A DNA stretch of 64,000 nucleotides. It comes from an uncultured Lachnospiraceae bacterium (GTDB taxonomy: Bacteria > Bacillota > Clostridia > Lachnospirales > Lachnospiraceae). The notes under the pieces are model-generated. The model saw nothing but the letters and a program-made list of their open reading frames with translations. It searched no databases and was not told the origin of the DNA. Position numbers and translations under genes: made by a program. This document shows, one piece after another, positions 5,714 to 6,850 of this stretch (positions are counted from its first letter, which is position 1; the number at the start of each line of letters is the position of its first letter). The stretch covers positions 1 to 64,000 of the forward strand of contig CALWLA010000003.1 in the NCBI GenBank assembly GCA_944381405.1, read 5' to 3'.

Positions 5714-6067
5714 ATGGCAAACAGAATCGTACTCAATAACATTTCCTATCATGGAAAGGGCGCGATCAAGGAGATCGTAAACGAGGCGAAGGCCAGAGGC
5801 TTTCAGCATATCTTCGTCTGCACGGATCCGGATCTTTTAAAGTTCGGCGTGACGAAGAAGGTGACGGATCTTCTGGATGAGGCGGGCATCGATGCGGTCA
5901 AGCAGCTGTCCAAGGACGTTGGCATTCCGGAGAACCTGGCAGGCAAGATCAAGGAAGAGGATCTGGACCAGCTGGCAAAGGACGCCCTGGCAGACGCATG
6001 CTGCCCCGGCAACCCTAGAGACACCAATCTGGAGGATCTGAAGGCCCTCTACAGAAAGGTCATGTAA
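5714..6067 (+). pseudogene. Lactaldehyde reductase FucO with its centre deleted
   Basis: A 117-residue open frame made of the two ends of an iron-dependent alcohol dehydrogenase of the FucO type, normally about 380 residues. Residues 1-58 match the N-terminal nucleotide-binding part (MANRIVLNNISYHGKGAIKE onward to LLDEAG). From about residue 60 the C-terminal tail follows in frame (DAVKQLSKDVGIP, then PGNPRDTNLEDLKALY). The glycine-rich NAD loop and all iron-binding histidines are missing, so it cannot be the enzyme. The frame is kept and promoter and ribosome site look intact. It ends on the base before arsM begins, so it may now serve mainly as a leader cistron. Confidence 0.8.
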
Positions 6068-6850
6068 ATGCAAAAGGATATTCACGATATCCACGACCAG
6101 GTCAGAAATGACTACCGGCAGATCCTGCAACATCCGGAGGCTTCCCTTCTGACAGGAAATGCGGAAGCGGATACGGTTTCCGCCTCGGTGGGCTATACCC
6201 CGGAGGAACTGGCTTCGGTGCCGCCGGAGGCCAATCTGGGCCTTGGCTGCGGCAATCCCCTGCGGGCCGCGGAGCTTCAGCCGGGAGAGGTGGTGATCGA
6301 CCTTGGCAGCGGCCCTGGACTGGACTGCTTTCTGGCAGGACGGCAGGTAGGGCCCAAAGGCAGAGTGGTAGGCGTGGATATGACGCCGGAAATGCTCAGC
6401 ACTGCGAGAGAGACCGCCAAAAGGCACCGGATCCGGAATGTGGAATTCCGGCTGGGGGAGATCGAGAATCTGCCTGCGGCGGATAACTTTGCGGATGTAT
6501 GCATTTCCAACTGCGTCATCAACATGTCTCCGGTAAAGGGCCGGGTCTATCGGGAGATCTTCCGGGTGCTGAAGCCCGGGGGAAGGATCTCCATCTGCGA
6601 CATCGTTATCATGAAGGAGTTGCCCAAGGAGCTGCAGGAGGATCCCAGCATGCATTCCTGCTGAGTCAGCGGCGCCTCTTCAGTTGAAGAGCTGACCCGT
6701 CTGATCGAGGCGGCAGGGTTTCAGGAGGTTTCCGTAAAGGAAAAGCCTGTTTCCAGGGAATATGAGGAGAAATGGGGCAGGACCCTCTCCGTGGGAAACT
6801 ACATCATGTCCTCTGCGATCACCGCGCGAAAACCGAAGGCCGAAGCATAA
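6068..6850 (+). CDS. arsM: Arsenite S-adenosylmethyltransferase, probable selenoprotein (UGA recoded)
   Basis: A 260-residue SAM-dependent methyltransferase if the in-frame TGA at 6662-6664 is read as selenocysteine 199. Motif I is VIDLGSGPGLDCFLAG, with the Cys expected of ArsM; VVGVDMTPEML follows. Upstream of the TGA the protein reads PSMHSC and downstream VSGASSVEELTRLIEAAGF, so the TGA falls on the catalytic cysteine of the usual C-(I/V)-SGA motif. The C-terminus continues to a typical end (NYIMSSAITARKP) and stops at TAA 6848-6850. A SECIS-like hairpin lies right after the TGA. The product should methylate trivalent arsenic. The alternative, a 198-residue truncation, would lose the arsenic-binding site. 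Confidence 0.85.
6662..6696 (+). promoter_or_regulatory. Bacterial SECIS-like element at the arsM UGA
   Basis: Directly after the TGA, GTCAG (6665-6669) pairs with CTGAC (6692-6696). After a six-base bulge, CTCTTC (6676-6681) pairs with GAAGAG (6686-6691), leaving the loop AGTT. The loop starts 17 bases past the TGA and has G at its second position; both agree with the published bacterial SECIS consensus (G in the first two loop bases, loop about 16-37 bases from the UGA). It would recruit SelB with Sec-tRNA. The selAB genes are not in this window. Confidence 0.8.

Follow-up and report, generated by a model that had tools for sequence, protein, structure and literature searches.

An arsM gene of an uncultured Lachnospiraceae bacterium very probably encodes a selenium-containing arsenic methyltransferase

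The window analysed in this study, meaning the whole 64,000-nt stretch of DNA from an uncultured Lachnospiraceae bacterium, carries on its forward strand an arsM gene at 6068-6850 (start ATG at 6068, stop TAA at 6848-6850) whose 260-residue product would be a selenoprotein form of arsenite methyltransferase with selenocysteine (Sec) at residue 199. The TGA of codon 199, at 6662-6664, is the sole in-frame stop and is followed by 61 sense codons. Translated through the TGA, the protein reaches 302 bits with the arsenite methyltransferase model NF008823 (cut-off 263), and a phmmer alignment to CmArsM pairs its residues 61, 149 and 199 with positions 72, 174 and 224. All three arsenic-ligand positions of CmArsM are kept, as Cys61 (codon 6248-6250), Cys149 (codon 6512-6514) and, in place of Cys224, Sec199; the codon immediately 5' of Sec199 (6659-6661, also on the forward strand) encodes Cys198, giving a Cys-Sec pair. 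A sequence-only reading that preceded this analysis had put the TGA at the arsenic-binding cysteine of ArsM and proposed an alignment to ArsM proteins as a check of the pairing, and the alignment bears this out, with the TGA exactly at the third arsenic-binding position. The fourth conserved cysteine (CmArsM Cys44) is not kept, the window protein having Asp35 there in the alignment, and no Cys occurs within the 45 residues N-terminal of Cys61. The criterion for ArsM in PMC5552862 is at least three of four conserved cysteines, and the window protein has three of the four if Sec is counted as Cys.

An AlphaFold model of the window protein, built with Cys in place of Sec and from 38 aligned sequences, had a mean pLDDT of 90.5 and a pTM of 0.90. 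When this model was used in a Foldseek search, the 13 best rows were all ArsM or human AS3MT structures, with TM-scores by query length of 0.60-0.71. CmArsM and human AS3MT (4fr0, 6cx6, 8xt7) share the fold and the three arsenic-ligand positions with the window protein, but they have Cys where it has Sec, retain the N-terminal Cys44/Cys32, have longer chains and are only about 30% identical to it.

None of the genes adjoining the window arsM is an ars gene. Directly upstream, at 5714-6067, is a 117-residue frame left over from an iron-containing alcohol dehydrogenase (lactaldehyde reductase-like) by internal deletion: one part corresponds to residues 13-71 and the other to residues 333-394 of an intact 394-residue protein encoded in the same place at L101, a locus from the same genus. 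Genes that we take to be pst and phoU also lie upstream, and downstream are a PuuR-like regulator (82.8 bits, below the cut-off of 211) and what are presumably pot transporter genes. No conserved neighbourhood of the window arsM was found among the clade members examined, and ars neighbours were present in those members only at L021/L130, which are one locus. At L021 (Faecalicatena contorta ET52) an ArsP_1 permease gene is directly upstream and arsR is further up. At another locus, L024, arsR is directly upstream and ArsP_1 more distant, and the Paraclostridium plasmid CP124691.1 carries an arsR - metallophosphoesterase - acr3 - arsM(TGA) cluster.

Codon 199 was compared across 150 homologous loci, defined as tblastn matches at 1e-20 covering residue 199, and was a Cys codon in 124 and TGA in 26, with no other codon found. 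Because L130 and L021 are one locus, there are 25 distinct TGA loci, the window included. The loci were the best 80 of 553 relatives among genome contigs, those from genus, family and order searches, and samples at class and phylum level in which at most 30 loci were fetched per search; at phylum level the count covers the matches with a fetched locus, and no TGA was listed inside the others. The one viral-contig relative (L194), a Cys form, was added to this set. A separate search of plasmids gave 427 records with a relative, the best at 53% identity. The position of Cys61 holds a Cys in every one of the 26 Sec loci and in all but one of the 124 Cys loci (123), and that of Cys149 in all 150. 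Two same-genus genomes carry arsM with the TGA, at 88% and 69% identity to the window gene. Between the window and the closer of these (L101), differences at codon positions 1, 2 and 3 number 12, 11 and 70 over the 198 codons before the TGA, and 5, 3 and 19 over 58 codons after it. This pattern indicates that the DNA 3' of the TGA is still evolving as coding sequence, and the earlier claim that the frame runs on for 61 codons as ArsM holds, given both the open frame and this conservation.

The source genome, which is 99.4% complete and comprises 2.0 Mb in 41 contigs, encodes machinery for selenocysteine insertion. Genes for selB, selA and tRNA-Sec are adjacent on contig C1, which also carries selD farther along, and all of them score above their curated cut-offs. 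All four genes that the sequence-only reading had proposed to look for (selA, selB, selC and selD) were thus found, among them selB and selC, whose absence it would have taken as a refutation. The tRNA-Sec model also passed its cut-off in 5 of the 14 control genomes, which makes a hit to it unspecific when taken alone, and the selB-selA-tRNA-Sec cluster carries more weight. In a search of 70 genomes, selA was over cut-off in all 18 of the TGA-arsM genomes of the search set. The search also took in 15 of the 22 other genomes of the window's genus, which have no close ArsM, and selA was over cut-off in 2 of these 15 (one-sided Fisher p 0.012). Of the eight Sec loci of the contig collection, the search covered L021, through an identical locus in genome G379, where selA is present; G379 belongs to the same family as the source genome, in keeping with an origin in Lachnospiraceae, the family of Faecalicatena. 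Within the window's genus selA is patchy: of 18 genomes searched, 5 have it over cut-off, and TGA-arsM is present in 3 of those 5. The selD gene of the source genome (L018:1501-2424; G000:C1:53320-54243) has one in-frame TGA in the context GECGG-U, and from this sequence its product, selenophosphate synthetase, looks itself like a selenoprotein.

A putative SECIS apical hairpin with a 6-bp stem lies on the forward strand at 6676-6691, its loop AGTT at 6682-6685, and the predicted fold reaches over 6665-6705. Folding of 6660-6705 recovered the AGTT-loop hairpin that had been noted right after the TGA, with 17 nt from TGA to loop, G second in the loop and -16.3 kcal/mol. The bSECIS rule quoted in PMC13188914 specifies a loop of 3-9 nt with G within its first two positions, a stem of 4-16 bp, a spacing of 16-37 nt and an MFE of at most -7.5, and the window hairpin (4-nt loop AGUU, 6 bp, 17 nt, -16.3 kcal/mol) lies within it on every point. 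The earlier statement that spacing and loop G match bacterial SECIS rules was therefore correct as far as it went; however, judged on the window sequence by itself the hairpin does not reach significance, as 22 of 200 shuffled sequences were as stable (z -1.4) and comparison with synonymous recoding gave p = 0.24, the latter partly because the encoded motif GASSVEEL itself favours a hairpin. Since the window hairpin is weak singly, only the comparison across loci counts as support. All 26 Sec loci have a qualifying hairpin, compared with 65 of the 123 Cys loci long enough to be assessed (the remaining one of the 124 was too short), and p < 0.05 against synonymous recoding was reached in 7 of 26 and 9 of 123, respectively. 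Among distinct Sec genes with ASSVEE/ASSVED, all 18 form the inner five pairs, versus 7 of the 22 Cys genes whose motif is comparable, and at L022 a T-A pair has become C-G through two synonymous changes, which amounts to one compensatory change. When all 25 distinct Sec sequences are taken together, 18 of them pair at these five positions and seven place a qualifying hairpin elsewhere. A search of the genome with Rfam SECIS_1 gave no match, and neither did the control genomes, so this search is uninformative; an Rfam scan of the 64,000-nt window found no family.

The lack of N-terminal cysteines extends beyond the window. In the 45 residues before Cys61 there is no Cys in 14 of 26 Sec loci, including the whole window clade (eight loci, of which seven are distinct), whereas 123 of 124 Cys loci have at least two, the exception (L073) being truncated by a contig end. 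With L073 left out, the difference (14/26 versus 0/123) gives a Fisher p of 6e-13 for loci that are related to one another. Nine of the 26 Sec loci, but only 2 of the 124 Cys loci, have a Cys directly before residue 199, as in the window clade; for a Cys two residues before it the counts are 11 of 26 and 8 of 124. The proposition that every Sec-ArsM has a nearby resolving Cys was true for the first 11 Sec loci and was dropped when the larger set gave only 20 of 26. In a tree of the 150 rows, made by a quick method with the trait columns omitted, 25 Sec rows group on a single branch (SH-aLRT 92, not starred), and the Pelotomaculum row L077 falls among the Cys rows, which implies that the Sec state has changed at least twice. 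The Pelotomaculum Sec-ArsM (L077:5001-5795) keeps an N-terminal CC and has SCU; judged from its sequence it is apparently a separate Cys/Sec change. N-terminal Cys loss maps onto the tree as two changes, one of them forced by well-supported branches, and a test of independent pairs for Sec versus N-terminal Cys loss gave p = 1. The loss within the Sec branch thus appears to rest on one or two evolutionary events, and because the loci are related, the idea that Sec lets the N-terminal Cys go was rejected as an established rule.

In human AS3MT, Cys32 and Cys61 are required for the first methylation step and Cys156 and Cys206 for both, and the rat enzyme needs neither Cys32 nor Cys61, according to PMC3877260 and the work cited there. 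It is possible, though doubtful, that this branch of Sec-ArsM could dispense with the N-terminal Cys relay because its third arsenic ligand is Sec, with redox handled by Cys198-Sec199 or by Sec199 and Cys61. The vicinal Cys-Sec pair resembles the C-terminal GCUG of mammalian thioredoxin reductase. A 2018 paper reportedly describes an ArsM requiring only two conserved cysteines, so N-terminal Cys loss is not unique to Sec forms.

Sec-ArsM has its counterpoints in the window, where the hairpin is not significant singly, no ars gene adjoins and the N-terminal Cys is absent. If the TGA were a true stop, the gene would encode a truncated 198-residue ArsM or be a decaying pseudogene, and both the weakness of the hairpin on its own and the internally deleted remnant just upstream would fit. 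However, this is very unlikely, given that 26 of the 150 loci have TGA at this codon and all others have a Cys codon there, that the 58 compared codons after it show coding conservation, that no second in-frame stop is present and that the genome has the Sec machinery. A sequencing or assembly error with TGC or TGT as the true codon would involve a single base, but it is scarcely credible because the same TGA is present in other genomes, two of them from the same genus, and in three finished plasmids.

The selenoprotein could also be a methyltransferase whose main substrate is something other than inorganic arsenite; it might act only on methylarsenite, say, or on another metalloid. This would suit a gene without ars genes beside it and a protein without the N-terminal Cys, given that human AS3MT needs its N-terminal Cys for the first and not the second methylation step (PMC3877260), but all three arsenic-ligand positions are kept, the score is above the arsenite methyltransferase cut-off and relatives have ars neighbours, and we consider it rather improbable. 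The window gene very probably encodes a selenium-containing arsenic methyltransferase, as the sequence-only reading proposed, and there is good reason to expect that it is a working selenoprotein form of ArsM. The open frame, the homology, the pairing of Sec with Cys, the Sec machinery, the hairpin as compared across loci, the coding conservation 3' of the TGA and the absence of N-terminal Cys are computed results; Sec insertion in the source organism, arsenic as the substrate there and a redox role of the Cys-Sec pair are inferred.

Sec-ArsM is an already catalogued selenoprotein family that appears in several selenoproteome catalogues. PMC13188914 cites Fomenko et al. (2007) for it. The catalogues list it as NF008823/PRK11873 with UxxG and the example WP_011987699.1 (PMC13188914), with 8 sequences (PMC2398784), in a table row with 39 and 41 (PMC5029168), and in PMC9312934. 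The window protein is like the catalogued form in scoring over the cut-off of the family model, in its U-x-x-G (U-VSG) and in having no second domain. Among the Sec loci compared here, the window clade has no N-terminal Cys and has the Cys-Sec pair, whereas a CGU clade retains the N-terminal CC. This branch feature, N-terminal Cys loss with Cys-Sec, may be unreported, as no paper on it was found in the literature searched. The fusion selenoproteins ArsM_AhpD_UU, ArsM_DUF2284_UU and MTase_UXPK_star (NCBIfam) have a related ArsM domain (about 150-165 bits); the window protein was rejected as a member of each, as it lies far below the cut-offs (in that order, 165 bits versus 510, 150.6 versus 575 and 156.6 versus 460) and has no second domain. 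Haft and Tolstoy (2025) is the work cited for these fused selenoproteins.

Sec-ArsM genes on Paraclostridium plasmids (CP124691.1, NZ_CP079738.1, NZ_CP094934.1) have Sec at the same codon and the hairpin-coding motif U-VTGASSVEEL, but their products are about 53% identical to the window protein, keep an N-terminal SCCG and have CGU, not SCU. The gene directly upstream of arsM is acr3 in two of these three records and a metallophosphoesterase gene in the third. All four Paraclostridium arsM genes examined have the in-frame TGA (one P. benzoelyticum locus and three P. bifermentans plasmids). On the P. bifermentans plasmids (L195, L196, L197) arsM is annotated at full length as arsenite methyltransferase despite the TGA, so the expectation that conventional gene calling would split or truncate such a gene does not always hold. 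Anaerobic arsenite methylation by Paraclostridium strains has been described (PMC9213503, PMC11653729, PMC12124457), two of these papers having an operon with the same gene set as the plasmid cluster (PMC11653729, PMC12124457). Words containing 'selen' are limited to Selenomonadales in PMC9213503 and to one reference title in PMC11653729, and PMC12124457 has none; no paper that brings together Paraclostridium, arsM and selenocysteine was found in the literature searched.

In the mechanism proposed here, SelB and selenocysteyl-tRNA would insert selenocysteine at UGA199 under the direction of the hairpin immediately 3' of it; trivalent arsenic would be bound by Cys61, Cys149 and the Sec199 selenolate and would be methylated with S-adenosylmethionine. 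More tentatively, a selenenylsulfide of Sec199 with Cys198 or Cys61 might substitute for the lost N-terminal Cys relay. The source organism is one more anaerobe whose arsenic methylation probably requires selenium, and it suggests a connection, open to experiment, by which the availability of selenium would bear on how toxic arsenic is and what becomes of it where oxygen is absent. A Sec clade that has lost its N-terminal Cys offers a natural experiment on the role of the Cys relay, and if the relay reading is true, some anaerobes of gut and soil, including Paraclostridium, would depend on selenium supply to methylate arsenic.
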